Of a stretch of DNA of 64,000 nt, positions 10,478-41,484 are shown in pieces (position 1 is the first letter of the stretch; each line of letters begins with the position of its first letter). The position numbers and the translations under genes were made by a program. The notes under the pieces are model-generated. The model was not told the origin of the DNA. It searched no databases and saw nothing but the letters and a program-made list of their open reading frames with translations. Origin of the DNA: Chamaelirium japonicum (taxonomy: Eukaryota; Streptophyta; Magnoliopsida; Liliales; Melanthiaceae). Where the stretch lies: the NCBI GenBank assembly GCA_947650365.1, contig OX393553.1, positions 72,045,729 to 72,109,728 on the forward strand, written 5' to 3'.

Positions 10478-10564
<87 letters not shown>

Positions 10565-10959
10565 GAATGGGATGCTGCCTATGAAAGCAGCGTTTTTTGC
10601 GGCTTTGATACATTGTTTGACCATCCTATAAGTTTTGAAATTTGATAAAATTTGGTGAGGGTGTTGTCTAGGGTAAGATGATCATCCTCACAAATTTTCA
10701 TCAAATTCCAAAACTTGTAAGAGGGTCAAATGGTCGAAGCAAAATCTGCAGATTTTAACGGTGACTGCAGATCTGCAGATTTTGCTTCGACCATTTGACC
10801 CTCTTAGAAGTTTTGGAATTTGATGAAAATTTGTGAGGATGATCATCTTACCCTAGACAACACCCTCACCAAATTTCATCAAATTCCAAAACTTCTAGGA
10901 TGGTCAAACAATGTATCAAAGCAGCAAAAAACGCTGCTTTCATAGGCAGCATCCCATTC

Positions 10960-11018
<59 letters not shown>

Positions 11019-11019: not shown

Positions 11020-12501
11020 AGTTTTATCGACAGAGAGATGATCACGCTCAACCCTCAACCGGGTTATCCTCTCAGCATGTGCGGTCTGTTGGTGCCCCAC
11101 ATGCTGTCAGAAGTTCCTCTTAAGGGAGCACGAGGCTCAAGTCTCTGACGGCGAGCCGAGTAGCGTCGCTTGCTCTCTAGCACTCGGACACTGGTTCACA
11201 TATCCTATCTAATGAGCTAGTCAATTAGGTTACTTTAAGATTTATATTTTATTGTGAGCTATCCTAGGCTTGGGGCCTTGAGGAGATGCCTACCCAAAGA
11301 GAACACAGTTGTATCATTGCCACTAATAACTTACACCAAGCCACATCTAGTACAATTACAATGCTAGAAAGAAATAGTACTGCTACACGACATACTGAAA
11401 TCTAAACTCCGCCACCGTCCTAACTCCGCCGCTGGCCTCGTGTTGCGGCTACCCCTGAGTCTCCGAACCTGCAGAAGAGCCTACTCGTGGGAATGAGTAG
11501 CCCCCAAAATGAATTGGGAGATTAGCCAAATAAATGGCTAGTGACAAGCTAACTGTCTAGGTAATTAATGACGCCCTCATTTTATAAACAGTTTACTGAT
11601 TATCCTAATTGTCCGACTATATTCTCAATCATGCCCTAGGTGTCCATCCAATGCCTACATTCGCATGCAATCTCTACTGTCACTAGGTTATTGAGAATAC
11701 CATTTTAAAATTAATAAAATTAAACACACTCAATGTGAACCCCGGATATTTTGTTCATCCTGCCCCCGGTCGGGCATTACTATAGGGCCTTTTATTTCGA
11801 TGTAGAGGACCAACTCTCTCGCTGTGCATACTCTGACACCATTCGCAAAGTCACCCATATGATCATAAGGGGTTTTCCATCTTTCACGATGGAGCTAAAC
11901 CGCCCAACTTGCTTTTCTTGGGGACTTCAACTATCCCGGGACAGGATTGCTAGGCCAATCCCTCTTCAAGGGCACCACCTATTGGCTTTACCACAATCCC
12001 TGCCCGTGACCCCCTAGCCTACTGATCTTCGTCTGTACGCGTAGGGTGGTTCACGGCCTTTGCGCGCATGAGGTCCGAATCTTTCAACATGATAGAATAT
12101 CACACAATTATAATAATAAAGTGATTTTGATGTTTTACCCCGGACTTCGCACCGCGCTCACAACCCATGCATCACGATAACTATAAATTTACTCTCGCCC
12201 GTGTTCCCGTGTGCCCGGGTCTCCACACTCCATCCAGGAGAGTGAGCCCGATAATTATTATTTAATTATTAATTTCTAATCTTAAGGAAATTCCTACTTA
12301 CGGTATCCAAGCAATCATAAAATTTATTATTTAATTATATTATTAAGTATGCGTCGCCGGACTCACGACTCCGCATGCAAGGCGGGGTCCACTCGACCAC
12401 ATGCGACAATGTCCGACGGGATCCGCATGCAGCGTTATGGACACCTACCCTTAATTTCTTTAACAACATAACTAATTATCTAAACAAGCGTGCAGTGTCA
12501 C

Positions 12502-13107
12502 TGTGGGGGGAAATTTCCGAGCCGCCTTGATCGAGAATCCCACCCCACAGCCTTGATTGAATTGGATTGTTTATAGAGTTAGAGATTAGAAAGTTGAGAA
12601 GGAGAAAGATGACACATGGAGTTGTTATCGAAGTTCGGTCTTACGACCTACGTCTCCGGGCGAGAGGTGCCACCTGATCTTCACTATAATATGAATATAA
12701 AGGGTTGAGCGTTCTCTCGACAGGCCGAGAGAAGCTTCTTACAATGTGTTTGCACGGAGCAATTAGAAGAGAAACAAGAAGAGGAGAATGGAGCTCTAGC
12801 ACTTGCTCTGGAATCCTCCTCCTCTGATGGAATGACCAACCCCCTTCCTGGATGCCTTGGGGGTCCTTTTATAGCGTAGGCACGTGCCCGATATGGCAGT
12901 GATGACGTGGCGCTGATGACGTGGCACTGGTTCTGGGCCTCCTTGTTGGGCCCTTATTGGGCCGTTGTTCGGGCCCAATAAGGGGTAGGGCTTGATCTGC
13001 GAGCCTCGTAGAGTGGGCCCATGTGAGCCCAGTCGGGCTTACCCATTTGGGCCGTTGCGCGGGCCCATGCTGCTCTGATCTGGTCCGGTACAATTTTTGC
13101 ACCCACA
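12502..13107 (-). repeat. 3' LTR of the gag-only element
   Basis: 606 bp, TGTGGG...CCCACA on the minus strand. A TATA-like CTATAAAAGG (minus strand) lies at 12865-12874 and would drive transcription leftward. It differs from the 5' LTR at about seven positions, mostly transitions. Confidence 0.95.
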
Positions 13108-13120
13108 GTTACCCCCTCCC
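13108..13120 (-). other. Polypurine tract of the gag-only element
   Basis: On the minus strand GGGAGGGGGTAAC directly precedes the 3' LTR, the expected primer for plus-strand DNA synthesis. Confidence 0.8.
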
Positions 13121-13244
13121 AGTCGGGTCAGGACCCCCTGGGTCGGCTGGGATTCCAAGGTGCAAACGCTTTAGGATCCTGGCACGGTTGGCGAGGGTTG
13201 TTGGTGCCGCGGTTCGTATTAGCAGAGCCTTCTTCCGCCGATGC

Positions 13245-13560
13245 CGAGACCCTTTTTGGCGCGAGCCAAAAAGTCTCGATTTTGCGAGGGGGTGTTTCCG
13301 AAAAAACAGTGCGTTTTCCGACCGAGTGGATACCGAGAGGGTACCGAGTGCGTACCGAGTGGGTACCGAGAGCATACCGGGTGGGTACCGAGACCCTTTT
13401 GGTGCAAGCCAAAAAGTCTCGATTTTGCAAGGGGGTGTTTTCGAAAAGATAGTGCGTTTTCCGACCGAGTGGATACCGAGAGGGTACCGAGTGCATACCG
13501 AGTGGGTACCGAGAGCATACCGAGTGGGTACCGAGAGGGTACCGAGACACTTCTCCTTTT
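13245..13560. repeat. 143-bp tandem array with TACCGAG sub-repeats
   Basis: The block containing GAGCCAAAAAGTCTCGATTT occurs at about 13258 and 13401, a spacing of 143 bp; a third copy is partial. Within each unit, 10-11-bp words of the form GGGTACCGAGTG repeat five to eight times. Open frames through it are by-products of the repeat. It is the array nearest the 3' LTR. Confidence 0.85.
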
Positions 13561-13599
13561 TCCAAACCGAGAGAATACCGCATGTCAATGATGATCGTG

Positions 13600-15420
13600 G
13601 GTCCGTGCTTTTCGGTGTGAGCAGCTCTCTCTTTCCTTTCTCTCTCTCTCTTTCCTCTTCAGCCTTCATTCACGTGAGACCCCGCTCTCTCTTTCCTTTT
13701 CTTTGGTTTCTTTTCATCCGTTCATCTATTTTTCATTCACGTGAGAGAGAGCCTCTCTCTCTCTATTTCCTTTCTCTCTCTCTCTTTCCTTCTCTGTGTT
13801 CGGTGAGAGGGCAGCAGCGTGAGGGGGAGACCTACGCGGGAGAGCGGGTGCGAGAGAGATGGCCGGCGGTGGCTGGGCATCGAGTGCGGGAAGGCGAAGG
13901 CGGTGACGGCGTGCGGTGCACGGGCTGTGGCGCGGGGCTCAGCGGCGGCCGGGTGCGAGCGGAGGTGGTGGTCGGCGTGCGGCTCCGGACGCGGGCGGAG
14001 GCGGTGGCGACAGGCGAGCGGCGCTGCAGCAGCGGGTTGCTGAGCGACGCGCGCGGAGCTCAGGTGGGCATGGTGCCGGATACCTTGAGAAGGGAGGCGC
14101 CGGAGTGGGCGTCGCGAGCCTCACCCTCTTAGGAGAAGGAAAGGGAAAGCTGGACCCCATCCCTCTTCTCTGCATCGCGACGGGAGGCGAGCACGGGGGA
14201 GGGGTCGGATCCCTCTCCTCTTCTCTGTAGTGCGATGAGGAGGCGCAGACCACGCCCCTCTTCTCTGCATCGTGATGGGAGTCGCACCGGGGAGGGGGGT
14301 GTGGAACCCTCCCCCCCTCTCTTTCCTCTCTGCTGCGAAACAGGAGGCGAGCACAGGGGAGGGATCGGACCCCTCCCCTCGTCTTTGCAGTGCAACGAGA
14401 GGCGAGCATGGGGGAGGGGTCGGACCCCCCCTCTTCTCTGGAGATCGTGAAGGAGGCTGGGGCGTGTGGGTCACGGGTGCTGCTGGTGGAGCTCACGTAG
14501 GGGAGAACAGTCCGACCCTCTCCTCTCCTCTGTCATCGCGGGCTGCATAGGGGGTCGGTGCAGCGTAGGCCGGGCTCAGGCTGGCGCAGCAGGAGGCACG
14601 GCAGGCGGGCTGGTGCGGCGGACGCCGGGCTCGGGCTGGTGCAGCAGGGAGCATGGAGCATGGTAGGCGGGCTGATGCGGTCGGCGGCCGGTCGCGGGCC
14701 GGAGAAGTACCACTCCATGTCCCGGCTCCGGAGCCGAGACATGGCGGGGAGGTCCCACGGCTCGGCCTTGTAGAGGTCGACCTCAGCGATGGCGTCGATG
14801 CGGAGGGGCCGGCTGGAGACCTTCCGCTTCAGGTAGTAGCTGACGAGCTCCTCATCGTTGGGGTGGAACCTGAACCCCGGCGCTAGCAGCTCGGACGGCA
14901 GCGGCGACGGGTTGGAGGATGAGGCATCATTGATCATCGGGAGTTCACGGATCCCTGCCGTGGCCTCTCCCTCTCTCCGTTGTTGCGCGTCGAGGGTGCA
15001 CGTGGGGGGTGGAGTCGGATCTTCTCCCCATGGTACTGCGAGCCGGAGGAGAAAAGAGAAAGGGAGTGCGGTTCGTCTGATCACCTCTGGGTTGGCTTGG
15101 GCCGCTGCGAAGAGGACATGCGGGGTTGCTTCGGGTCGCTGTGAGACAGCACGCACGGAGGGGTCGCCTCGGTCCGCTGCGAGACGGAGTGCGCGGCAGG
15201 GGAGGATGAGTTAGGTTCGTCCTCGTCGCCGTGTGACGAATTACATGAGGAGAATGCACGGGAGGGTGCTTTGTTCATACGACCCCCTATTCCCATTCTG
15301 ATCGGTTGTCGCCAAGAGCACGTACGCGTGGGCCGGGAGAGGTGCAAGTTCTTCTTTCATACCCGGCGCTTGGCCTGCTACGAGTTGGGCGCGTAATGAA
15401 CCAAATTGAGGGCGTGAGCG
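13600..15420 (-). other. Captured GC-rich segment in the gag-only element
   Basis: Base composition changes sharply from the arrays on either side. The segment includes CT-rich blocks with two CATTCACGTGAGA copies 66 bp apart (about 13668 and 13734). Degenerate GAGCACGGGGGAGGGGTCGG units of roughly 60-90 bp follow at 14185-14445, and then the NAC fragment. Such composition is normal for monocot promoters, 5' leaders and first exons rather than retroelements. I infer it is host DNA or cDNA carried by the element, possibly from more than one source. Confidence 0.6.
14686..14937 (-). pseudogene. NAC transcription-factor fragment, N-terminal NAC domain
   Basis: The minus-strand frame starting with Met at 14937 reads into the diagnostic start of a NAC domain: [20 protein letters not shown], then [13 protein letters not shown], then [12 protein letters not shown]. 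This covers about the first third of the domain (subdomains A and B and the start of C), about 84 residues including the leader. NAC proteins are plant-specific DNA-binding regulators; the DNA-contacting WKATGKDR-type region is missing, so it cannot act as a NAC factor. Similarity ends after EWYF, where the frame runs into unrelated Pro/Ala-rich sequence. It lies in the sense direction of the retroelement. Third codon positions are almost all G or C, unlike the surrounding repeats. One Thr of the usual HPTDEEL is Asn. Confidence 0.85.
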
Positions 15421-15929
15421 CATCCGTCATTGCCGTGTAATTATTCTGATGCTAGTCTTCGAAGAAAAAGACCTTGAAAACTTCCGACAGCCGTAACTTT
15501 TCATACGTGCGTCGGATCAACGCGTATAAGGTACCGTCACGTCGGTACCGAAAAATCGATCAAAGTGGACGTAAAACATCATATACGTTAACGTGTAACA
15601 TTTTCGATATTCATCTTCGTAAAAAGGTGACTTAAAAAGCAAGCAGGCCAGTTTTTTTTTTGCTCGCATCTCTAAGACGCATTGACTTGCAATAATTCAC
15701 GTATCACTGGTCGGCACCCAACTGCACCTAGTTACTGTGTTCACTAGGGACTACAGTCAGGCCTCCACGATGACGTGGTGGTTACCGCGGGTCCACCCCC
15801 AGATGAGAGAGGAATTTCCAAGCTTGTGAAGTTTGTACAACCAACTTGATAGTTTTATTTGAGATGTTATTCAACCAACTCAATGGAAGATAGCTCTTCG
15901 TCTTTGAATGATCATTGTGTGTGGATGAC
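15421..15929. other. Spacer between captured segment and hairpin array
   Basis: No coding frame. At about 15707-15755 it holds a block (CACCCAACTGCACCTAGTTA) related to one at about 16962-17015 on the other side of the hairpin array. Confidence 0.5.
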
Positions 15930-16760
15930 ACCGAGCACCCCCCCTCTCGGTTTTCTGACGAAACCGAGGGGTGGGCTGTTGTTGATGCCGAACACCCACC
16001 CTCTCGGTTTTCTGACGAAATCGAGAGGTGGACTATTGTTGATACCGAACACCCCGACCCTCTTGGTTTTTTTTTTTGATGAAACCGAGAGGTGGACTAT
16101 TGTTAGTGCCGACACCCCCTCCCCACTCGGTTTTTGTGCGAAACCGAGGGGGGGCTGCTTGTTGATGCCGTCACCCACCCCCTCTCGGTTTTCTGACGAA
16201 ACCAAGGGGTGTGCTGCTGATGTGCCGTCACCCCCTCCCCACTCGATTTTTGTGCGAGACCGAGGGGGGGCTACTTGCTGATGCCGACACACACCCCCTC
16301 TCGGTTTTCTGACGAAACCGAGGGGTGTGCTGCTGATGTGTCGTCACCCCCTCCCCACTCGATTTTTATACGAAACCGAGGGGGGGCTACTTGCTGATGC
16401 CGACACACACCCCCTCTCGGTTTTCTGACGAAACCGAGGGTGTGCTGCTGATGTGCCGTCACCCCCTCCCCACTCGATTTTTGTGCGAAATCGAGGGGGG
16501 GCTGCTTGTTGATGCCGACACCCACCCCCTCTCGGTTTTCTGACGAAACCGAGGGGTGTGCTGCTGATGTGCCGTCACCCCCTCCCCACTCGATTTTTGT
16601 GCGAGACTGAGGGGGGGCTACTTGCTGATGCCGACACACACCACCTCTCGGTTTTCTGACGAAACCGAGGGGTGTGCTGCTGATGTGCCGTCACCCCCTC
16701 CCCACTCGGTTTTTATGCGAAACCGAGGGGAGGCTACTTGCTGATGCCGACACCCCATTA
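15930..16760. repeat. 116-bp tandem array of small hairpins
   Basis: The word CCGTCACCCCCTCCCCACTC recurs at about 16225, 16341, 16456, 16572 and 16688, giving a 115-116-bp period. Each unit is two half-units of about 58 bp. Each half-unit can fold: CTCGGTTT and AAACCGAG are separated by a short TCTGACG loop in one type and by a TTGTGCG-type loop in the other. In all about 14 hairpins follow one another. The period is not a multiple of three and frames do not persist, so it is not coding. Confidence 0.9.
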
Positions 16761-17221
16761 TTGGGGCTGCTAGAAGAGGTCAAAAAGTGTCGGTATTGAA
16801 AATAGTGTGTTTTTCGAATTTTAGCTCCATCTGAAACCGACACTTTTTCGGTCATATTCCTAAAACACTGGTATGCGGGGTTGTCGGCGAGGGATAATGC
16901 TATACCTGAGGGGGCTTCTTAGAGATAATCTAAGATGACACCGCATGATGGCCATCCAGTCTTCACCCAATGTACTACCGTACCTGGTTACTGTATTCGC
17001 CAGGTACTACGGTCACGTGAGGGTGTTGACTTGGCCAGGATCAAGGAAGCGTCATTTTACCCCGTGTTACCCACCGTCGACTGCACCAGTGTGGGGACAC
17101 ACACTGACAGAGTTAGACCAACCACCCCCTGACTGGTTTGGAACCGTTAGTCGTCGAGAAAAGGTGATGGCCAGTGACAATCTGATGCTTGGACCTGAGT
17201 GACAATACTAAGCTTGGACTT
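16761..17221. other. Spacer between hairpin and 67-bp arrays
   Basis: It contains an inverted pair, AAAAAGTGTCGGT near 16781 and CCGACACTTTTTC near 16837, and a block near 16962-17015 related to 15707-15755. Nothing coding is seen. Confidence 0.5.
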
Positions 17222-18165
17222 TTGATCGAATGCCAATACGTCGGTGACGACGTCTCGGACGTTGTCTTCGAATGCCAAGGGCTGGGCCTTGGGCTTGTAG
17301 AGTGCCAAGGCATTGGTCACCTCGAACTTTGTCTTTAAGTGCCAAGGGCTGGGCCTTGGGCTTGTAGAGTGCCGAGGCGCTGGTCGCCTCGGACTTTGTC
17401 TTCGAGTGCCAAGGGCTGGGCCTTGGGCTTGTAGAGTGCCGAGGCATTGGTCGCCTCGAGCTTTGTCTTCAAGTGCCAAGGGCTGGGCCTTGGGCTTGTA
17501 GAGTGCTGAGGCGTTGGTCGCCTCGGACTTTGTCTTCGAGTGCCAAGGGCTGGGCCTTGGGCTTGTAGAGTGCCGAGGCATTGATCGCCTCGAACTTTGT
17601 CTTCGAGTGCCAAGGGCAGGGCCTTGGGCTTATAGAGTGCCGAGGCGTTGGTCGCCTCGGACTTTGTCTTCGAGTGCCAAGGGCTGGGCCTTGGGCTTGT
17701 AGAGTGCCGAGGCATTGGTCACCTCGGACTTTGTCTTCGAGTGCCAAGGGCTGGGCCTTGGGCTTGTAGAGTGCCGAGGCGTTGGTCGCCTCGGACTTTG
17801 TCTTCGAGTGCCAAGGGCTGGGCCTTGGGCTTGTAGAGTGCCGAGGCATTGATCGCCTCGGACTTTGTCTTCGAGTGCCAAGGGCTGGGCCTTGGGCTTG
17901 TAGAGTGCCGAGGCATTGATCGCCTCGGACTTTGTCTTCGAGTGCCAAGGGCTGGGCCTTGGGCTTGTAGAGTGCCGAGGCATTGATCGCCTCGGAATTT
18001 GTCTTCGAGTGCCAAGGGCTGGGCCTTAGGCTTGTAGAGGGCCGAGGCATTGGTCACCTCGGACTTTGTCTTTGAGTGCCAAGGGCTGGGCCTTGTGCTT
18101 GTCGAGTGCCAAGGAGTTGGTCGCCTCGGACTTTGTCTTCGAGTGTCAAGGATGTCTCCTTGAAC
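17222..18165. repeat. 67-bp tandem array, about 13 units
   Basis: GCCAAGGGCTGGGCCTTGGG recurs every 67 bp from 17274 to 18078, and a shortened unit follows. Because 67 is not a multiple of three, a translating frame passes through all three phases every three units, yet the minus strand stays open for up to 193 codons with a 67-residue repeat period. I treat it as non-coding satellite-like sequence unless translation is shown. Confidence 0.95.
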
Positions 18166-18234
18166 TTGGTGCATGTAAAAGCGGCGACGTCTGCCTTGGA
18201 CTTATTTTCATCGTCTCGGATAAGTATAGTTGAT

Positions 18235-18910
18235 AGTTTAGCTTGACCTGGATTGTCAGGAGCATTTTTATCTGACTTTCGCCTTGAAAGGGCGTAGCCG
18301 AATTGCCTTCGAGCTTCCGACTTGAATGGGCGGAATCGAAGGTCTTTGGTTGACCTGGGTTGCCAGGAGCCTTTTTATCGGACTTTAGCCTTGAGAGGGC
18401 GTAGCCGAATTGCCTTCGAGCTTCCGACTTGAATGGGCGGAATCGAAGGTCTTTGGTTGACCTGGGTTGCCAGGAGCCTTTTTATCGGACTTTAGCATCG
18501 AGAGGGCGTAGCCGAATTGCCTTCGAGCTTCCGACTTGAATGGGCGGAATCGAAGGTCTTTGGTTGACCTGGGTTGCCAGGAGCCTTTTTATCAGACTTT
18601 AGCCTCGAGAGGACGTAGCCGAATTGCCTTCGAGCTTCCGACTTGAACGGGCGGAATCGAAGGTCTTTGGTTGACCTGGGTTGCCAGGAGCCTTTTTATC
18701 GGACTTTAGCCTCGAGAGGGCGTAGCCGACTTACCTTCGAGCTTCCGACTTGAATGGGCGGAATCGAAGGTCTTTGGTTGACCTGGGTTGCCAGGAGCCT
18801 TTTTATCGGACTTTAGCCTCGAGAGGGCGTAGCCGAATTGCCTTCGAGCTTCCGACTTGAATGGGCGGAATCGAAGGTCTTTGGTTGACCTAGTTTGCCA
18901 GGAGCCTTTT
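18235..18910. repeat. 107-bp tandem array, about six units
   Basis: GGTCTTTGGTTGACC recurs at 18341, 18448, 18555, 18662, 18769 and 18876, an exact 107-bp period. The units end with the CCAGGAGCCTTTTT block. The array lies just downstream of gag in element orientation. No open frame crosses it. Confidence 0.95.
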
Positions 18911-19089
18911 TTTTCTATGCCTTAATATGGTGGAATCGAACTTCGAGAGATTTGATTTTGAGAAAAAAAAGACACTTTATTGATATAACAAAGTTGCAGT
19001 TACACTTTTTCAGAGGTTGCCCCGCGGACGTTACGATTATGCATCCACGTATTACATTGACTTTCTTTTCTCGACTGCTGCAACATCTC

Positions 19090-20742
19090 CTACTCTTGAC
19101 CTGGTTCCTTATTAGCGAGGTAGCCATCGAGCCGCCCTTCTTGGATCAGGTCTTCGATGTGATGCTTTAGCTTCCGACATGTAGAGGTTGGGTGGCCATG
19201 GCTGCGATGAAACTCACAGTAGGCTGTCGTATCTCCCGCCTGGTCAGAATTTGGAGGGAGAGGCTGTGGCCACTTGCAAAAGGGCTCGTTCTGCAAGTAG
19301 GCGAAGATGTCTTCAATGGAGGTGTTCAGCTCAGTGAACACCCTTTGCTCCCTTGGAGTTCGCCTCTTTTCTGCTGGAGGGGCCTTCGGATCTTCATTGT
19401 ACCTTTTGACCTGTACCTTTTGGCCGGACGGGGCATGGACAGACTTCTTGTAGTGTGCTTCATTCAGAGCTTCATCATCTTTCTTATGTCGGGAGTCACG
19501 AGGCTCGCGGGGCTCGCGTAGTCTTCTGGCCTGCTGATTGTCTTCCACCTCTATCTCTCGCTGTACGCGCTTGAACATTGCCTCCAAGGTACTGGGGGGA
19601 TACCGGATGAAGTCGGTATAGACGTGAAGCTCTGGCCGAATAGCATTCTGGAATGCCAGCATGATGGCCTCCTCATTATGAGACCGACCGGTGAGCTCAG
19701 AGTGCTCATTACGAAACCTCATCGTGAAGCTCCTTAGAGACTCATCGGAGCCCATCTTCAGCCGGTAGAGTGTATCCAGCTTCTTTTCCGGCTTTAAGTT
19801 TAGCCGGTAATGGTCCATGAAGAGTTCAGCTAACTCTTTGAATGTGGCCACCGTACTGGCAGGCAGCGTGTGGTACCAGTCGAGGGCAGGTCCCTCGAGA
19901 CTTCCCGCGAACATACGACAAAGGATATGATTCTCATACTCATACGGTGTTAGGGCCTGCTTGTAGGCTAGGATATGGAGAGCAGGGTCTCCCTTGATGC
20001 AGTTAAACTTTGGCAGGCTCGGTGTTTGCCAACCCATAGGAAATGGGGTTGCAAGAACCTTGGGATGTAGTGGCCCCACCGAGGTGATTAGCTGCCTGCG
20101 GTCTTGATGGCGGCGTCCTACGTCGGCAGTATGCCTTAGTCGGTTGAGCAGCTCACGGGCATCTGTTGCTTTCGTGTGCGAAGGGATAGAATGTCTAGTG
20201 GACCCTGTTGACTGAGGTGATCCTTCTCCGCGATAGCTGGGCGCACTGTTGACGTCGAGGCGATCCCACACCGTTTGCCTTGGTGCTTGTGTAGATACCT
20301 GACGCATCTCGATACGCGGCACATGTGGTTCTTCAAGATGATGACTCACGGCTGGGCAAGTCCTTGGTTGGTCTTCATCAGTAGCTAGAGAGTTGTGGGC
20401 CACAACCCCCGCTCTTTTAGCCGCCTTCTTTAGGGAATCTCTCTCTTGCTCGAGGGCTGTGTTCCTCTTGAGAAGGTTCAACACCTGGAAATCAGCAGCC
20501 AAAATTTGGTATGTAGTTAGACCGTTGTCCCCTGGGGTGGCGTGCTCTTTGCCAGATTGTTGCCTCGGGAATGGTGGGTCCTGCCGCTTGCTGTGGCTTC
20601 CCGGATGACTTCCTTGTGGCCCCAGTCGCTTATAAACATTTCTTCGATTGGTTGCAACCGAGACTTCTTGTTCTTCTTCGATTAGCACGTCGATTGTCCG
20701 ATCAGCACCCGCTTTTGGTGGGTTGGTGCTGGCCTTCACCAT
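19090..20742 (-). CDS. Gag protein of the non-autonomous LTR element
   Basis: An intact 550-residue frame starts 140 bp inside the 5' LTR, the usual place for gag. Residues about 80-112 are heptad-like and could form a coiled coil. Residues about 230-400 match a retrotransposon Gag domain, with the phrase GDPALHILAYKQAL, then EGPALDWYHTLPA, then LRSFTMRFRNE. Residues 509-522 form a CX2HX4HX4C zinc knuckle variant (C509, H512, H517, C522) followed by LKHHIEDLIQEGRLDGYL, a signature of Tat/Ogre/Retand gag proteins. Gag forms the particle that packages element RNA. No protease follows, and the frame ends at Gln-Glu just before the 107-bp array. The lack of stops in a neighbourhood full of decayed frames suggests recent activity. 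Confidence 0.9.
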   Translation of the reverse strand: MVKASTNPPKAGADRTIDVLIEEEQEVSVATNRRNVYKRLGPQGSHPGSHSKRQDPPFPRQQSGKEHATPGDNGLTTYQILAADFQVLNLLKRNTALEQERDSLKKAAKRAGVVAHNSLATDEDQPRTCPAVSHHLEEPHVPRIEMRQVSTQAPRQTVWDRLDVNSAPSYRGEGSPQSTGSTRHSIPSHTKATDARELLNRLRHTADVGRRHQDRRQLITSVGPLHPKVLATPFPMGWQTPSLPKFNCIKGDPALHILAYKQALTPYEYENHILCRMFAGSLEGPALDWYHTLPASTVATFKELAELFMDHYRLNLKPEKKLDTLYRLKMGSDESLRSFTMRFRNEHSELTGRSHNEEAIMLAFQNAIRPELHVYTDFIRYPPSTLEAMFKRVQREIEVEDNQQARRLREPREPRDSRHKKDDEALNEAHYKKSVHAPSGQKVQVKRYNEDPKAPPAEKRRTPREQRVFTELNTSIEDIFAYLQNEPFCKWPQPLPPNSDQAGDTTAYCEFHRSHGHPTSTCRKLKHHIEDLIQEGRLDGYLANKEPGQE

Positions 20743-20860
20743 TGAGCGTGTTGATGTCAGCGTGGTGAAGGCTTTGAGGTTGATTTGGAGGAGGACTTGT
20801 GGCTCGTCGCCACAAGCTGAATAGGAGTCGGTAGAGGTGTGGGTAAGACCTCTATCGATA

Positions 20861-20877
20861 TCCCACAGACGGCGCCA
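20861..20877 (-). other. Primer binding site of the gag-only element
   Basis: On the minus strand TGGCGCCGTCTGTGGGA begins five bases after the 5' LTR. The TGGCGCC start complements a tRNA 3' end and this sequence type is common in Tat-lineage elements. I do not assign the tRNA. Confidence 0.8.
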
Positions 20878-20882
20878 AAGAT

Positions 20883-21488
20883 TGTGGGGGGAAATTTTCG
20901 AGCCGCCTTGATCGAGAATCCCACCCCACAGCCTTGATTGAATTGGATTGTTTATAGAGTTAGAGATTAGAAAGTTGAGAAGGAGAAAGATGACACATGG
21001 AGTTGTTGTCGAAGTTCGGTCTTACGACCTACGTCTCCGGGCGAGAGGTGCCACCTGATCTTCACTATAATATGAATATAAAGGGTTGAGCGTTCTCTCG
21101 ACAGGCCGAGAGAAGCTTCTTACGATGTATTTGCACGGAGCAATTAGAAGAGAAACAAGAAGAGGAGAATGGAGCTCTAGCACTTGCTCTGGAATCCTCC
21201 TCCTCTGATGGAATGACCAACCCCCTTCCTGGATGCCTTGGGGGTCCTTTTATAGCGTAGGCACGTGCCCGATATGGCAGTGATGACATGGCGCTGATGA
21301 CGTGGCACTGGTTCTGGGCCTCCTTGCTGGGCCCTTATTGGGCGGTTGTTCGGGCCCAATAAGGGGTAGGGCTTGATCTGCGAGCCTCGTAGAGTGGGCC
21401 CATGTGAGCCCAGTCGGGCTTACCCATTTGGGCCGTTGCGCGGGCCCATGCTGCTCTGATCTGGTCCGGTACAATTTTTGCACCCACA
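20883..21488 (-). repeat. 5' LTR of the gag-only element (promoter LTR)
   Basis: 606 bp with the same TGTGGG...CCCACA ends as its partner. A TATA-like CTATAAAAGG on the minus strand lies at about 21246-21255. Transcription from it would run through gag, the arrays and the NAC fragment in sense. Confidence 0.95.
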
Positions 21489-23482
21489 GTCACCTGGAAA
21501 GTGTGCTCGGGCTGATGCTGCTAGGCATCCTTTACTCCGTCTCCGACTTGGTCCGTGCGCCCGCTAACTGCCAAGTATTAAGCGTCATCGGACGCCGGTC
21601 TACTGGCACGCAAAACGGTGCACCAAACGGCACCGTCTTGGTTAGTCGACGTTGCTGACACCAAGTGTCCCACTAAGGTCTAATAGCAATGATTCGGCCA
21701 AATGGTCGTGACCGTGTCGGTCAATGACGGAATCGGCAAAGCCGATCACGATCGGGCTTGATTTGCCAAAGGACGTGTTTGCACGGGAATCGTACTAGTG
21801 ACCATCCTAGGTTGCTAAGTAGCACCTCGTTGCCGCTAACAGGGTCCGTCTCGTGCGCAAATGGCTATGCTAGGTGGTTTGGCCTGCATCGGTATCATCA
21901 ACTTGATACAAGCGTGACCCGAGGAGATCGGCCTGCTAACCACAAGTGTGGGCCCAAAGGGCTTGATCGACATCATGGGGAGGTCGGGGTTGGTGTGCCA
22001 AGCCACAACTTGGCGTTGCCAACTATCCAATTGCCAAATTTCCGCCAGGCTCGAGTACGGTTCGACAGCTTGCGCTAGGCTATGCCGGAACAAGGGTTGC
22101 CCTATGTCGGCTCTAGGCCGATTGCATAGCCGGTGTCCACCTGGCCGGCCGACAATGGCTGCCCCAATGGCGACCCAAGGGTAGTCGGATGCCACCGGGT
22201 GTTTGGTCGGGCTTGGTCAGCCTCCTTTGGTTGCACAACCGCTGGTCACCTGGCCGGCGGCTATGACCATGTCAAATCTAAGGCGACAGGGGCTGGTCGG
22301 ATTCGCACAGAGAAAGAAGAAAAGGCAGGGTTCGCGGTATTGGTTGCATAACCGTCGGCCATGTGGCCGGCTGCCGTGGCCATGATAAGATAAATAGGGC
22401 AAAGAGGGGGGCTTTTATCATCTGCTAGTCGACGTCAAAGCCGAGTCGGCCACCACAATGGGGGAAACGCGGGGGTCAAAGCGGTAGGTGGCTATCAGCC
22501 CATGGGGCCTGGTCGGGCTAGGTCGAGTGCTACCTATTGCATGGTTACCGACAACGAGGCCGTCGGCAACCATCGCAGCAAGGTGAGAAGGAGGGGTGGC
22601 ATGCAATGAGTCGGCTCGTCGGCTGGTTTCAACGGTACAAAAGAGAGAAAAAAACAGGGGAAAGGAGGGGAGGTGGCCGACCTGGTGCAGGGGGTCATCG
22701 GCTGTGGCTCCTCTTCCGGCCGGCAACGTTCCGGCTGTCATGCCACACACACAGCAAGAGGGAGAGGAGAGAGAGAGAGATCGGATGGAAAAGAGAGAGG
22801 GAGAATCGGAGAAGATGAAGAAGGGGACCAGATAGGGGTGAGGGGTTTGGACTGAGGAAGGGGGGAGAGGGGGAGTGGGGCAGGGGCGTTAAAGGGAAGG
22901 GAGGGGCGGCCGCCAGTGGGGTAGGGGTCAAGGAAGGGGGGCAGTCGACTTAGGGTCTAGGGGCGGCTGCTGGTAGGGGGCCTAGGGGCGGGCTTAGGGT
23001 CAAGGAGGGCGGCGGCGGTTGGTATGATGGGATGGAGGTGGCGGCGGCCGGCAGTGAGGTCAAAAAGGGGAGGCGACGGGCGGCTGCCGGGCTCAGGGTC
23101 AAGGAGGGCGGCGGCTCGTAGGGGGCGGTGGCTTAGGGTCTAGGGGGGCTGGGTCGGATCGAGTTTGGGGGAGAGAGGGAGAGAGATCGGGGAGATGGGG
23201 GAGAAGAGAGGAAAATAGAGAGAGAGATGAGAGATGAGAGGGGACGGGTCGGGGTTTGGGGTTCGGGTTTGGGCTGGGGTCGGGTTCGGGTATGGGTTTA
23301 GGTTTTATTAGATTTTTTTTTCTCTTCTTTCTTTCTTTCATTCTTTTTCTTTTTTCGTCTGATTTTGCCCGCGCCGCGCCTGACTCAACCTCGACTCACG
23401 TCGAGACGTGCCGGCGCGCGAACCTCGCTGACTCCGACAGACCCGCCATAGTAAAATAATAGTAAAAAAAATGGTTGTTACA

Positions 23483-23527: not shown

Positions 23528-25069
23528 CTAGTCATCAAACAAAGATGGGTACAGGGATCGCATCGCAGACTCAAGCTCCCAAGTAGCTTCCTCCTCACTG
23601 CAGTGCTGCCACTGCACTTTCACCATGGGGATGGTCTTCGTGCGAAGCACTCGATCCTCGCTAGCCAGAACCCTGATCGGTTGCTCCTCATAGAATGCAT
23701 CTGAACTAAGTGTCAGACCCTGCCAATCCCGCACGTGGGACGGGTCCGGCTCATACCTTCGAAGCATCGACATATGGAAGACACCGTGGACGCTCGAGAG
23801 CTGTGGAGGCAGCGCCAGCCGATATGCTACCTCACTAACTCTCTCCAAGATCTCGAAGGGGTCGATGAATCTCGGAGCCAACTTTCCTTTCTTCCCAAAC
23901 CTCGTGATGCCTCGACGAGGGGAAACCTTCAAGAAGACATAGTCTCCAATGGTGAACTCGAGCGGGCATCGATGTACATCAGCATAGCTCTTCTGTTGAC
24001 TCTACGCTGCTCGAAGTCGCTCCTTGATCAGCTGGATCTTCTCCGTCGTCTCCTGAACGAGCTCCGGTCCTGAAAGGCTTCGCTCTCCTACTTCCGCCCA
24101 ACAAAGAGATGACCGACACAGCCTCCCGTACAAGGCCTCATAGGGGGCCATACCGATGCTGGCTTGGTGGCTATTTTTTTAGGCGAAGTCTACAAGAGGT
24201 AGATGCTCCTCCCAACTACCTCCAAAATCCACAGAACATGTCCGTAACATATCCTCCAGAATTTGAATCGTCCTCTCGGACTAGCCATCTGTCTAAGGGT
24301 GGAAGACTGTGCTAAAACTGAGCTCAGTCCCCAAGGCTGTCTGCAGGCTCTCCCAAAAGTGAGAAACAAACCAAGGATCTCAATCTGAGACGATGGAAAT
24401 TGGAACTCCATGCAGTCTAACAATCTCCCTCATGTACAGCTTTACCCGGTCGATAAACGTCATCGTCGTCTGCATAGGAAGAAAGTGCGCCGACTTCGTC
24501 AGTCTGTCCACGATCACCCAAACAGAGTCATGCCTGTTCTGGGTCAAAGGCAACCCCGAAACGAAGTCCATCGTAATATGCTTCCATTTCCACTCAGCTA
24601 CTGGGAGTGGCTGCAGCAATCCATCCGGTCTTTAGTGCTCAGCCTTGACTTGCTGACAAGTTAGACATCTGGACACGAAGGCGGCCACATCCCACTTCAT
24701 GCCCTTCCACCAGAACTGCCTCCGCAAGTCGTGATACATCTTAGTGCTGCCGGGGTGCACCGAGAATCTAGATCGATGCGCCTCTGATAGCACCTCCTCT
24801 CGAAACTGCACATCAGTGGGAAGACATAACCTCATCTGGAACCTCAGACCTCCATTAGCATCGACTGACCAGTCTGGAATAGAGTCCCCACTATCGCACC
24901 ATGCTCTCATCTCCTCTAGCTCTGAATCCAACCTCTGTACTGCAATCACCTTCTGAAGTAGGCTGGGTTGTACTCGTATGATGCGCAACACGGTACGAGA
25001 AGTCTCCCACTGAACCCATAAATCAAAGCCTTCTATCGTAGCCAAAAAATCATGTCGATCTATCAACAA
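23528..25069 (-). pseudogene. Chromovirus integrase with chromodomain, decayed
   Basis: Integrase inserts the DNA copy; the chromodomain steers it toward chromatin. From 25069 leftward the frame shows the zinc-binding region (AHRSRFSVHPGSTKMYHDLR, then CLTCQQVK near 24640). The catalytic core follows, with WKHITMDFVSGLPLT near 24585-24550, then DRLTKSAHFLP. The C-terminal part has GKKGKLAPRFIDPFEI and VFHMSMLRRYEPD. At about 23640-23528 comes a chromodomain-like end with VKVQWQHCSEEEATWE. Several in-frame stops interrupt it, for example after KAEH near 24634 where a CAA codon has become TAA, and others between 24370 and 23990. No protein can be made. Confidence 0.9.
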
Positions 25070-25276
25070 TCTGGCAAGCTAGCTACGGGACTTTCGGCTA
25101 AGGGCATCTGCAACAACATTCGCTTTACCAGGATGGTAAAAGAGCGAATAGTTGAAGTCCTTCAGGACTTCAATCCGCCTTCTCTGTTGCATGTTCAGAT
25201 CCTTCTAACTCACGATATACCACAGGCTCTTGTGATCGCAATACATCTTAAACTCCTCACCATACAGGTAATGCCT

Positions 25277-26400
25277 CTAGATCTTCAAAGCGAGGACCAC
25301 TGCTGCCAGCTCTAGGTCATGGGTGGGATAATTTTTCTCGTGAGTCTTCAGTTGTCTTGAGGCGTATGCAACCACTTTGCCGTCCTGCATCAGAACTGCT
25401 CCAAGCCCCATCAGCGAGGTGTCGGTGAAGACCACATAGCCCTTACTGCTAGCTGGAATCATCAGCACTGGGGTCGAAGTAAGACGCCGCTTCAACTCTC
25501 GGAAGGACTTCTCACAATCTTCCGACCACTCGAACTTAACACCCTTCTTAGTTAGACAGGTGAGAGGTGCAGTTAGACGCGAGAATCCCTCCACAAAGCG
25601 TCGGTAGTAGCCTGCTAGCCCCAAGAAACTCTTGATCTCGAAGACATTCCTTGGCTGCTCTTAGTCCATAACAGCCTTTATCTTTGCTAGATCCACCGAG
25701 ATACCTTTCTTCGAGACAACGTGTCCGAGGAACTTCACCTCCTGCATCCAGAACTCACACTTACTGAGCTTGTCATACAGTTGGTGATCTCTGAGGGTCT
25801 GCAATACTACGCTCAATTGCTTCCGATGATCTTCCTCCGTCTTGGAGTAAATGAGGACATCATCCACAAATACTAACATAAATCTGTCCAAGAACATGCT
25901 GAAGACGTGGTTCATCAGATCCATAAATGCTGCAGGAGTGTTCGTCAGACCGAAGGGCATGACTAAGAACTCATAGTGCCTGTATCGCGTCCAAAACGCT
26001 GTCTTCGGAATATCCTCTACCCTCACAGCCAGCTGGTGATATCCAGTCCTCAGATCAATCTTCGAGAAGCAACAAGCACCCTTCAGCTGATCGAACTGAT
26101 CCTCTATCCGCGGCAATGGGTACTTGTTCATTATTGTGAGGCTATTCAGCTTGCGATAATCGATGCAAAGCCTCTTTGTCCCATCCTTCTTCTGAGCTAA
26201 CAGGACCGGGACTCCCCAAGGAGATATGCTGGGACGAATAAAGCCTCAGTCAAGTAACTCTTCCAACTGGGTCTTCAGCTCCTTTAGCTCAGCAGGAGCT
26301 ATTCGGTACGGAGCAATCGAGACCGGTGCTGCTCCCGGTACCATATCTATAGCAAACTCGACCTCCCGAGGTAGAGGTAAGCCTGGGAGCTCATTTGGGA
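25277..26400 (-). pseudogene. Chromovirus reverse transcriptase and RNase H, decayed
   Basis: The core reads [16 protein letters not shown] from 26131, with [30 protein letters not shown] and the catalytic FVDD at 25859-25870. The connection follows ([14 protein letters not shown]) and then [13 protein letters not shown] from about 25618. RNase H has [15 protein letters not shown] and [12 protein letters not shown]. Stops separate the segments, for example near 25661 and 26250, mostly changes that fit C-to-T decay. The family copies element RNA into DNA and removes the RNA strand. Confidence 0.92.
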
Positions 26401-29147: not shown

Positions 29148-30720
29148 CTAGCGGGAAACAACAGTCTTAACTCCCATGGCATCCACGTGCTTCTCAAAAG
29201 CCTTGGTCTGTAACGCCTTTGTGAAAGGGTCCGCCATGTTATTTGCAGACGCTACCTGAGTCACTGCAACCTCTCCTCGCTTCTGCAAGTCCTGGATAAT
29301 GTAGTATTTCCGCTCGATATGCTTGCTCTTCTGGTGATATCTTGGCTCCTTGGATTGTGCTACCGCTCCACTATTGTCACAGTAAAGGATAATAGGATCT
29401 TGAGCTCCCGGTACGCATCCTAAGTTCGTGAGGAACTTCTTGAGCCACACCGCCTCCTTAGCTGCTTCGCACGCCGCAACGTACTCAGCCTCTGTCGTCG
29501 AATCCGTGATGCATCTCTGCTTCACGATCCTCCAACTGACAATTTCTCCTCCTAATGAAAACACAAACCCTGACGTCGATCTCTTGGATTCCGGATCTGA
29601 CGCAAAGTCAGAATCCGTATATCCAATCGGCATCAGTTCCTGTGAAGAGTAAACTAACTCATAATTTCTCATCCTACGGAGATACTTGAGTATACTTTTC
29701 ACAGTAGTCTAGTGCCCTGGACCCAGATTTGACTAATACCTGCCCATCATGCCTACTATATAGCATATATCTGGTCTCGTGCACTGCATGGCATACATCA
29801 GACTCCCTACAGCCGAAGCATAAAGTATCTTCTGCATCTCTGCCCTTCCCTCATGAGTCTTAGGACCCTGATCCTTGGACAATTTCATTCCATGTCTGAA
29901 TGGAACCAGTCCCTTCTTGGAGTTGTGCATACTAAATCTGACCAAGATAGTATCTATGTAGGCTGACTGTGACAGCGAGAGAATCTTGCTCTGGCGATCT
30001 TGAGTTACTTTGATCCCCAGAACATAACTCACTTCACCCAGGTCTTTCATGTCAAATTGAGAGGATAACCACACCTTTCACTGTAGACAACGTTCCAACA
30101 TCGTTTCCGATGAGCAGGATATCGTCTACGTAAAGCACTAGAAAAACTACTACAGTCTTATCGCTCCTTTTATAAACACATGGTTCATCCACGTTCTGTT
30201 CAAATCCATAAGACTGGATAGCCTGATCAAAACGCATGTTCCAGCTTCTGGATGCTTGCTTCAGTCCATAAATGGACCTTTGCAACTTGCACACCAGACC
30301 TTCCCGACCTTTTGCGACAAAACCTGGAGGCTGAGACATGTAGATGTCTTTTTCCAAATCCCCGTTGAGGAATGCGGTCTTGACGTTAATTTGTCAGATC
30401 TCCCAATCATAATGGGCTGCAATGGACAAGAGGATCCGGATAGACTTAAGCATAGCCACTGGCGAAAAGGTTTCGTCATAGTCGATCCCTTCTCACTGGG
30501 TATAACCCTTAGCGACTAGTCTAGCTTTGTAAGTCTCAACGGTACCATCCGGACCTCTTTTCCTTTTGTATACCCACTTATACCCAATAGGTTTAATGTT
30601 GTGAGGTGGTGTTACAAGTGTCTAGACCGAGTTTTGGGACATCAATGTCAGTTCTGCCTCTATGGCTTCCTGCCATGCTGTATGGTTAGTGGATACCATC
30701 GCTTTGTCATAGTTCAGAGG
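29148..30720 (-). pseudogene. Copia-1 reverse transcriptase and RNase H, broken
   Basis: RT has the phrases DIYMSQPPGF and [13 protein letters not shown] and the catalytic YVDD at 30121-30132. A one-base insertion near 30075, compared with the same place in Copia-2, shifts the frame, after which RT continues as [20 protein letters not shown]. RNase H (29702-29148) is open for 184 residues with YTDSDFASD, TTEAEYVAAC and YCDNSGAV carrying its acidic residues, and ends at a stop at 29148. Further stops lie near 30520 and 30600. Confidence 0.92.
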
Positions 30721-30729
30721 ATCATTCTC

Positions 30730-31849
30730 CTAAAACTCCGGATCAACCATAAAGGTTTCTCCAATGTATCTATCAGGAGCACCTATGGTCCTCCCACTGC
30801 AACGAACCTGCGGTGGTTCCATAGGAGTCGATTCTACAGTATTGTTAATCTTAGTGGTATCGGCTCCCACTACGTTTTCTGTCTGTGTACTCCCATCAGT
30901 ACCAAGCAATTCTTCAAGAACTACTTTACTGGTGGGCTTATGGTCTATTAAATAATCCTGCTCCAGGAATACGGCGTTCGTCGAGACGATAACCTTTCTA
31001 TCCTCAGGATCATAAAATAGACCACCCTTTGTCCCTTTTGGATACCCAACGAACAGACATACCTTAGTTTTTAACTCTATCTTATCTCGCTTATCCTTTC
31101 GCACATGTGCTGGACAACCCCAAATCCTAAAGTGCTGTAGGCTTGGCTTTCGCTTCAACCACAGCTCCCAAGGAGTTAAGGGTTACTGACTTTGATGGAA
31201 CAAAGTTTAAAGTATATGCTGCCGTCTCTAGGGCATATCCCCAAAAACTAGGTGGCAATGTTGCATAACTCATCATAGTCCGAACCATGTCTAACAAAGT
31301 TCGGTTTCTCCTCTCAGATACACCGTTCTGTTGTGGTGTCCCTAGTGCAGTCAACTGGGATATAATCCCATGCTCACGCAGGTACCCAATAAATTCATCC
31401 GATAGGTATTCGCCTCCTCGATCCGATCGAAAAGACTTGATACTTTTACCCGTCTGCTTTTCTGCTTCAGCTCTGAACTCCTTGAACTTATCAAAGGATT
31501 CAGACTTTCGCCGCATTAGGTATATATATCCAACCCTCGAGTGATCATCCGTGAAGGTGATGAAATACTCGAAGCCTCCTATGGCACGGACACTTATGGG
31601 CCCACATACATCAGTGTATACCAACTCCAATACCTCCTTAGATCTGCTACCTTTGGCTCGGAAAGACCTTTTAGTCATCTTGCCTTCCAAGCAAGACTCA
31701 CACGTCGGTAGGCTTTCTGAAACATTTGGACTTAAGAGTCCTACCTTAACCAACCTGTGAATCCTGTCTGAGGCTATGTGTCCAAGCCTTAGATGCCAAA
31801 GGAGTATTGGATTATCTGAGGGATTTTTCCTTTTAGATGAATTAATCAC
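30730..31849 (-). pseudogene. Copia-1 integrase, frameshifted
   Basis: The zinc-binding part (HLRLGHIASDRIHRL, then CESCLEGK) starts near 31800. The catalytic core has YTDVCGPISV and SDRGGEYLSDEF, followed by GTPQQNGVSERRNRTLLDMV. A shift of frame near 31180 separates this from the C-terminal part, which resumes as LQHFRIWGCPAHVRKDKRDK and ends with the SGR...PDRY stretch. Integrase joins element DNA to the host chromosome; this copy cannot. Confidence 0.9.
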
Positions 31850-31890
31850 ACAAGCTTCAGTTATGTTATCCTGCTTATGATTGGAGTTAA

Positions 31891-33102
31891 TTACATAGAG
31901 ACCATTCTGTATCTTTCCTTACAAACAAAGGAATCATTCAATTTAATTGACACACCAGAAGCATCAAATAAAACTGAAAAACCTTCATTATTCAATAAGG
32001 AAATAGAAATTAAATTACGTCTCAAGGACGGTACATAAAGTATGTCTCTAAGTAATAAACTTCTTCCATCAAGGAACTGCAAGATGACATCTCCAACTGC
32101 TTCAGCCTCTGCTACGGCCTCAGTTCCCATGCTTAGGATTATCTCCCCATCACCCAGTTTTCTTGTCTCTTTGAACCCCTGCAAATTATTGCAAGCATGG
32201 TTAGTGGAACCAGAATCCACAATCCATGAGACTGGAGAACAACTGGATGCTACTAGGGATTCCACTATATGGATTTGAGATATACCTGTCTCAGCCTTCT
32301 TGGGAGCCACGCGGCAGTCGCCCTTCCAGTGCCCATTCTTGCCGTATCGGAAACATTTTCCTTTGGGCTTCGTCGGACCATTCTGCTTAGGAACCTGCAA
32401 CTGCACCTGGCCCATCTCCACGGGCTACTTAGACTTTCTTTTCTGAAACTTGCCCTTGGCTTTCAGAGAAGAATTCCGATCCACGTTTAGGGATTGGGCT
32501 CCTGCCTTCATCCCGTCCTCTACCGCCTGGAGCGCCGCTAGGAGCTCTGCGTTAGACATCTCCAACCGGTTAAGGTTGAAGTTGGTAACGAAGCCCTCAA
32601 ACGCTCCTGACAGAGACGTGAGGAAAATGTCGGTCTAGATCTCTGCATCCAAGATGATATCGAAGGAACCAAGCTCGTTCACATAGCCAAACAACTTCAG
32701 CATCTGATCCCGAACTAAAGTCCCCTATGCCATCTTCGTGGATACCAATTTCTTGATGGTCAGGTAACGAGTTACCCGACTATGACCCTCGAACATTTCC
32801 TTCAGGTAGAGCATCATGTCTGAAGCAAAGGCCATGTCTTCGACTTGCTTCTGAAGGACGGTCTGCAAGGATGCCACAATGTAGCACTTGCACATCTTAT
32901 CAGCATCTAGCCAGTCTTTCCATTCCTTTAACTGGGTCTCAGTTGCACTTGGTCCCGGCATGGCCGATTGAGGGGTACTTAGGGTAATTATGTGTTTGCC
33001 AACCCTTAGGACGAGCATTAGGTTACGCTTCCAGTCCTCGTAGTTTGGTCCCGTAAGTTTGTTATCATTAAGTATGGAGGCAAGGGGGTCGAGCTTGGTC
33101 AT
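31891..33102 (-). pseudogene. Copia-1 gag and protease, decayed
   Basis: Gag most likely starts at Met 33102 (MTKLDPLASILNDNKLTGPN), matching the start of Copia-2. It carries MMLYLKEMFEGHSRVTRYL and is interrupted by stops near 32730, 32637 and 32425. The zinc knuckle at 32314-32355 has lost its second Cys (CFRYGKNGHWKGDC, a TGC-to-TAC change). Protease shows WIVDSGSTNHAC, with the catalytic DSG near 32220. The 1.9 kb between this and the primer site has no frame of note. Confidence 0.88.
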
Positions 33103-33144
33103 GATTTCTATAAATAATGGTTTAAAGCAATAGTTAGGGTCCAC

Positions 33145-40011: not shown

Positions 40012-41436
40012 CTAGCGAAGCAAAACGGTTTTGACTCTTATTGCGTCCACATATCACTCGAATGCCTTTATAGGTATTGCCTTGGTGAAAGGATCAGCAA
40101 CATTATCTGTAGATGCAATCTGTGTCACCGCTACTCGCCCTTGCTTTTGAAACTGCCGAATCAAGTGGAATTTGCACTCGATGTGCTTCCCCTTTTGGTG
40201 ATGTCTTGGCTCCTTTGCTTGTGCTACCGCCCCACTATTGTCGCAGTAAAGCACAATAGGTAACTGGGCCTCTGGTACGCACCCCAAATCCGTAAGGAAT
40301 TTCTTGAGCCATACCGTTTCTTTGGCTGCTTCGCACGCTACAACGTACTCAGCCTCTGTGGTAGAGTCCGCGATGCACTTCTGCTTCACACTCTACCAAC
40401 TAACCGCTGCTCCTCCTAACAAAAATACAAAACCTGATGTCGATTTTCTAGATTCTAAATTTGATATAAAGTCAGAATCTGTGTATCCAATCGGTGTCAG
40501 TTCCTGTGCAGTGTAAACCAACTCATAATCCCTTGTTCTATGAAGGTACTTGAGTATGCACTTCACAGCTGTCCAGTGATCTGGACCCGGATTCGACTGA
40601 AATTGACCCATCATGCCTACTGTGAAACAGATATCTGGCCTTGTACAATGCATAACATACATTAGACTACCTAATGCTGAAGCATAAGGTATCTTCTGTA
40701 TATCTGCTCTCTCCTCAGGTGTCTTAGGACATTGATCCTTAGACAGTTTTACGCCATGTTTAAATGGCACAAAACCCTTCTTGGAGTTTTGCATGTCAAA
40801 CCTAGCCATAAGCTTATCTATATACGCAGCCTGTGACAGCGAGAGAATCCTATTCTGACGATCTCGTGTTACCTTGATCCCCAAAACATAACTCGTTTCA
40901 CCTAGGTCTTTCATATCGAACTGTGTTGACAACCAGACTTTTACCGTTGACAATGTTCCAACATCATTCCCAATGAGCAGAATATCATCTACGTAAAGTA
41001 TCAAATATACCACTGTAGTCTTATCACTCCTCTTGTATATACATGGTTCATTCTCGTTTTGAGTAAATCCATATAACTGGATTGGCTGATCAAAACGAAT
41101 GTTCCAACTTCTAGATGCTTGCTTTAGTCCATAAATGGACTTCTGCAACTTGCAAACTAGATGTTCCTGACCCTCTGACTCAAAACCTGGTGGCTGCATC
41201 ATATAAATGTCTTCTTCCAAATTCCCATTGAGGAATACTGTCTTGACATCCATTTGCCAGATCTCCCAGTCATAATGGGCTACAATGGATAGGAGGATCC
41301 GAATAGACTTTATCATAGCTACCGGCGAGAAGGTTTCGTCAAAGTCGATTCCTTCTCTCTGGGTATAACCCTTGGCAACTAATCTAGCTTTATAAGTCTC
41401 AATAGTACTATCAGATCCTCTTTTCTTTTTATACAC
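40012..41436 (-). pseudogene. Copia-2 reverse transcriptase and RNase H, nearly intact
   Basis: From 41436 the frame is open for 347 residues: [50 protein letters not shown], the catalytic YVDD at 40984-40995, then [15 protein letters not shown]. RNase H begins with YTDSDF. One stop near 40390 precedes the rest (DSTTEAEYVVACEAAKE, YCDNSGAVAQ), and another near 40054 lies just before the end at 40012. Stops fit single C-to-T or G-to-A changes. Copia RT normally shows DVKTAFLNG; here Ala is Val. Confidence 0.92.
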
Positions 41437-41484
41437 TCACTTACACCCAATAGGTTTAATATTGGATGATGGTGTAATAAGAAT

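Follow-up and report, generated by a model that had tools for sequence, protein, structure and literature searches.

Plant LTR retrotransposons are known to carry host genes: a survey of full-length elements counted 672 genes within LTR elements in rice, 1,343 in sorghum and 424 in maize (PMC3726574). The maize element Bs1 holds transduced pieces of three host genes and is counted among the retrocopies made by LTR elements (PMC13317346, PMC5408686). Packaging of cellular mRNA, followed by template switching at stretches of microsimilarity, has been described (PMC5408686), a template-switching route for LTR elements is also set out in PMC13317346, and the transduced pieces usually lie in sense (PMC7264820). 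Two further groups of elements are relevant here. TR-GAG elements are those that encode only GAG, or GAG and AP (PMC6022998). Among the Retand elements of the Tat group of Ty3, about half have tandem repeats before the 3′ LTR, and some members are non-autonomous (PMC11963269).

The element described here lies in a 64-kb window (the whole stretch of DNA that was analyzed, to which all positions refer) and is a further example of this known process, a transduction of the Bs1 type. As in Bs1, host coding sequence sits within the borders of an LTR element (here a Pfam NAM match at E 8e-21 between the LTRs), however, Bs1 took up pieces of three genes, whereas this element has one NAC piece, is gag-only and contains several tandem arrays. 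It shares with the captured genes of rice and sorghum a position within a full-length LTR element, although that survey counts annotated genes inside LTR borders and its main text contains neither the word "NAC" nor the word "intron" (PMC3726574). It shares with TR-GAG elements the LTRs and a gag that stands alone, and differs from them in its host gene piece and in about 6 kb of sequence after gag (gag and the 3′ LTR are 5,982 bases apart, and four tandem arrays take up 2,680 of these). In the literature searched, no gag-only element with a NAC piece was reported, nor was a TR-GAG with captured gene fragments. Two papers there contain the words NAC domain (PMC6218025, PMC8965521); to judge by their titles they deal with a wheat root transcriptome and a tomato NAC gene.

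The borders of the element and its main internal features are as follows.

12497-12501, no strand: left copy of the target-site duplication GTCAC
12502-21488, minus strand: complete LTR retrotransposon, defined by paired LTRs and target-site duplication
12502-13107, minus strand: 3′ LTR, 606 bp, with TG...CA ends
13108-13120, minus strand: candidate polypurine tract, assigned by eye, with purine-rich GGGAGGGGG (13112-13120), adjoining the 3′ LTR
19090-20742, minus strand: gag open reading frame, 550 aa, matching Retrotrans_gag (PF03732) at E 1.6e-9 over 19093-20742
20862-20879, minus strand: candidate primer-binding site TTTGGCGCCGTCTGTGGG near the 5′ LTR, assigned by eye
20883-21488, minus strand: 5′ LTR, 606 bp, with TG...CA ends
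21489-21493, no strand: right copy of the target-site duplication GTCAC

The element is structurally complete and young. Its two LTRs differ at 7 of 606 positions (six transitions and one transversion), and the K2P divergence, computed over 607 positions that include one flanking base, is 0.0116. Substitution rates used for dating LTRs are 1.3e-8 or 6.5e-9 per site and year. These rates give an age of approximately 0.45 or 0.9 million years, respectively, and this copy would have inserted about half a million to a million years ago. A preliminary description, made by reading the DNA, had placed a NAC fragment between the two LTRs of a complete, recent element, and the similarity of the LTRs and the GTCAC on both sides bear this out.

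That description had also called the element gag-only, and we agree. The element has 34 stop-free stretches of at least 90 codons, of which 22 run in sense and 12 in antisense. All of them were scanned against Pfam, the NAC-bearing stretch with 207 of its 225 codons submitted, and no pol family (reverse transcriptase, integrase or RNase H) was detected. Gag and NAM were the only Pfam families to reach their cut-offs in these stretches; a Ty3_capsid match overlapping gag fell below it, and four other matches below cut-off (baeRF_family11, TetR_C_44, DUF3145 and MISS) were taken as chance. Five pol pieces from neighboring elements gave no tblastn match inside the element. Since gag is present and pol was not detected, the element is by the published rule (PMC6022998) a non-autonomous TR-GAG, with gag alone besides the NAC piece. 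The gag itself (19093-20742, minus strand) is intact, and a protein search of a very large collection, in which the 7,994 best word-sharing candidates were scored, returned nothing related at E <= 0.001. Such a result is unusual for a plant gag and could reflect a limit of the search. In viral contigs, 17 stretches fit a search pattern and none was confirmed. An antisense open frame of 369 codons (13023-14132, plus strand) runs from the 3′ LTR into a GC-rich stretch and has no Pfam match.

Two features define the captured piece.

14704-14937, minus strand: captured NAC fragment, consisting of the ATG, an N-terminal leader and the first half of the NAC domain to EWYF, identified with Pfam NAM
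between 14745 and 14744, minus strand: expected exon junction within the NAC fragment, placed by comparison with homologues

The fragment matches positions 2-62 of the 122 positions of the NAM profile with E 8.3e-21 and 75.2 bits against a cut-off of 27, which rules out a chance open reading frame, and four distinct NAC sequences with solved structures match it with E 2.2e-18 to 1.5e-15. The reported start of a NAC domain on the minus strand is therefore real, with its ATG at 14937 reading down, in frame. Clear NAC homology stops at EWYF (14704), whereas the Pfam alignment extends to residue 82 (14692); after EWYF, the Phe that normally completes WYFF is absent and the sequence beyond is not NAC. 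A functional NAC factor needs the whole domain, and profile positions 2-62 are what is present here. The frame contains no stop over the 134 codons that begin with the ATG or over the 91 codons that precede it, so the 84 residues translated in the preliminary description are not an open reading frame in themselves. Third-position GC is 0.90 over the 84 NAC codons versus 0.55 in gag, a difference that says little because the surroundings are GC-rich (0.60 in 14001-16000). The possibility of several NAC pieces in the window was ruled out by tblastn over the 64 kb (E up to 1), where the sole further match, of 10 residues at E 0.29, fell inside the NAC fragment itself and on the opposite strand.

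To place the fragment among NAC proteins, we compared the best 120 of the 744 proteins that matched at E <= 0.001 (792 candidates). Within this set the best full-length relatives are NAC53/NAC78-like, and the top of the ranking is mostly monocot (Typha, Ananas, Iris, Musa and Vanilla). The first rank in the same set goes to Drosera P0062, which carries the first half-domain twice, and we judge that this doubling probably inflates its score. Among the matches listed, the highest identity is to Vanilla P0070, at 52 of 60 core residues. The ATG falls within one residue of the starts of Typha P0063, Apostasia P0074 and Vanilla P0070, as expected if the start codon was kept. Only 1 of the 60 core residues is unseen among 119 listed homologues of equal length, namely the Asn that replaces the Thr of HPTD, a Thr present in 120/120 listed full-length homologues. 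Together, the identity to P0070 and the single unseen residue suggest that the frame was kept or that the capture is fairly recent. In a tree of 60 columns, which left out Drosera P0062 and 61 short homologues, the position of the fragment was not resolved, as none of the starred sets comprising at most half the rows included it. A NAC53/78-like factor would be the donor, and a monocot affinity is suggested, as judged from the NAC homologues only.

The preliminary description noted that the frame runs from DLP into SRLRSRD with no intron and that NAC genes commonly have their first intron near that point. We examined the second statement with 61 short homologues, selected by a length filter of 46-147 aa that favors proteins cut at an intron. 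The DLP/DLA motif could be matched in 58 of them, and in none of the 58 did a WYF-type motif follow within 30 residues, whereas 118/120 listed full-length proteins reach this motif. Gly stands directly after DLP/DLA in 51 of the 58; among the full-length proteins, 119 have the motif and 32 of them show this Gly. We read the excess in the short set as the mark of an intron of the form G|GT at that codon. In some of the 58 the WYF-type motif is missing for another reason, as in P0060 (Ensete), whose domain sequence picks up again further on, and three of the 61 are off the pattern: P0002, which runs through to WYF, P0058 and P0061. The short homologues judged most NAC53/78-like are P0001, P0004, P0009 and P0022, and the comparison includes no known monocot gene structure. 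These comparisons suggest that a phase-1 intron at the codon after DLP/DLA is common in NAC genes, in line with what had been proposed. The fragment passes this junction uninterrupted, reading DLP-A(GCC)-M-SRLRSRD with no insert, as GACCTCCCCG|CCATGTCTCGG, where the bar is the expected junction. An uninterrupted frame at the usual site of intron 1 points to spliced RNA.

The orientation of the piece can be read in the same direction. The element reads on the minus strand, as does the NAC piece, so the piece lies in sense, as had been claimed, and since this is the usual finding for transduced pieces (PMC7264820), we counted it in favor of capture from RNA. We therefore consider it probable that a gag-only Ty3-type element captured the fragment from a spliced NAC mRNA by template switching. 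In the mechanism that we propose, the carrier would be a non-autonomous Ty3-type TR-GAG, and a spliced NAC53/NAC78-like mRNA would have been packaged with the RNA of the element, in the present copy or in an ancestor. The reverse transcriptase of a helper element would then have switched template onto the NAC mRNA and back at short shared stretches. The outcome would be a sense-oriented NAC coding segment of about 235 nt, set among the repeats that separate gag from the 3′ LTR and now carried along as a passenger. Likely captures of host mRNA with visible borders, sense orientation, a start codon and a read-through intron site can help in the study of gene pick-up by non-autonomous elements.

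The main rival is capture at the DNA level, in which ectopic recombination or repair copied into the element a genomic NAC segment free of intron 1, or an existing NAC retrocopy. The donor gene could be one without intron 1, and two homologues, P0002 and P0082, show no intron where they cross the junction; they lie on contigs of 3,355 and 2,496 bases that are possibly not genomic. The NAC piece also ends mid-exon and sits among tandem repeats, which are prone to rearrangement at the DNA level. However, the short homologues point to a common intron at this place, the sense orientation and the lack of recognizable intron DNA fit RNA, and the 64-kb window contains no other NAC sequence that could be found by tblastn with E up to 1. 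We regard capture from an intron-free DNA copy as rather unlikely.

A NAC retrocopy could also have inserted independently into an element already in place, unrelated to the element's own reverse transcription, and a piece that is half a gene with its frame kept could be read in this way. However, the 300 nt downstream contain no run of at least seven A, and the 63 nt before and the 64 nt after the piece share no word longer than 5 nt, so that a poly(A) tail and a convincing flanking duplication are both missing, which speaks against a nested copy made by a LINE. In addition, the piece has the 5′ end of the gene and not its 3′ end, while LINE-made copies usually show the opposite, with the 3′ end kept and the 5′ end missing. 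We find a nested retrogene hardly credible.

Under the favored capture from spliced mRNA, the NAC sequence would have entered a stretch that is rich in repeats.

13244-13536, no strand: tandem array, 143-bp unit, 2.0 copies
14152-14457, no strand: degenerate GC-rich repeats, downstream of the NAC piece in element sense
14968-15027, no strand: block upstream of the NAC piece in element sense, resembling 14160-14218 (8 of 500 shuffles as good)
15167-15205, no strand: second upstream block, resembling 14325-14362 (5 of 500 shuffles as good)
15936-16755, no strand: tandem array, 116-bp unit, 7.0 copies
17254-18151, no strand: tandem array, 67-bp unit, 13.4 copies
18243-18911, no strand: tandem array, 107-bp unit, 6.3 copies

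The two resembling blocks come from a comparison of six blocks (four upstream, two within NAC) with 13600-14685, using 500 shuffles. For the other two upstream blocks 363 and 274 of the 500 shuffles were as good, and for the two NAC blocks 189 and 384. When the whole upstream flank was set against the whole downstream flank the result was marginal (7/200 shuffles as good), and the NAC piece resembled neither flank (102 and 52 of 200 shuffles as good). These results hint weakly that an older repeat array surrounds the NAC piece and that the captured piece may be short. If the repeat signal is real, the captured DNA would start within some 30 nt of the start codon.

A long stretch with tandem repeats before the 3′ LTR, here with units of 107, 67, 116 and 143 bp, is a feature shared with Retand, however, that lineage is defined by its reverse transcriptase, and none was found in the present element. 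Antisense TRP28 open reading frames are reported in 97% of Retand clusters (PMC11963269). The 12 antisense stretches of at least 90 codons here contain no Pfam family at cut-off, a result that would bear on TRP28 only if Pfam includes this domain.

The preliminary description further raised the idea that transcripts of the element yield an N-terminal NAC peptide or small RNAs directed at the parent NAC gene. As functional cargo, such a peptide might dimerize with the parent protein and poison it. The sense orientation, the kept start codon, the open frame of 134 codons and the mere 1 of 60 residues that is unusual are what such cargo might look like, and small RNAs from captured pieces have been reported in rice and sorghum (PMC3726574) and in maize (PMC13317346). 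The position in the RNA is unfavorable: the start of the 5′ LTR and the NAC ATG are 6,551 nt apart, and gag and 64 ATGs come after this LTR and before the NAC start. The fragment also has Asn in place of the invariant Thr of HPTD and lacks the second half of the domain, and the DNA-binding part of the NAC domain is in the half that is missing here. Half a domain that lies behind gag, 6.5 kb into the RNA, is unlikely to give a working NAC peptide, and the suggested N-terminal peptide is thus disfavored. Effects through small RNAs are possible in principle; among captured genes, 85 in rice and 812 in sorghum have unique small-RNA loci (PMC3726574). As a whole, we judge functional cargo to be quite improbable. 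We speculate, as a still more improbable extension, that a multi-copy gag-only family could spread spliced NAC53/78-like sequence, its transcripts serving as a dispersed source of small RNAs that tunes a NAC regulator whose targets may include the activity of the element. Cases such as this one are also useful for asking whether captured pieces act back on their donors.

Other mobile sequences lie in the same window. Pieces of a Ty3-type element, in separate open reading frames at 23528-26131 (minus strand), include reverse transcriptase, integrase zinc-binding and SH3 domains, together with a chromodomain match below cut-off; they have no match inside the gag-only element. A related pair of copia-type elements, at 29148-33144 and 40393-43363 (minus strand), shows 72-81% protein identity in four cross-alignments. 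On the other side of the gag-only element, an inverted repeat (10562-10753 and 10771-10962) has arms of 192 nt that are 97% complementary and 17 nt apart, and has the look of a foldback or MITE-type element.
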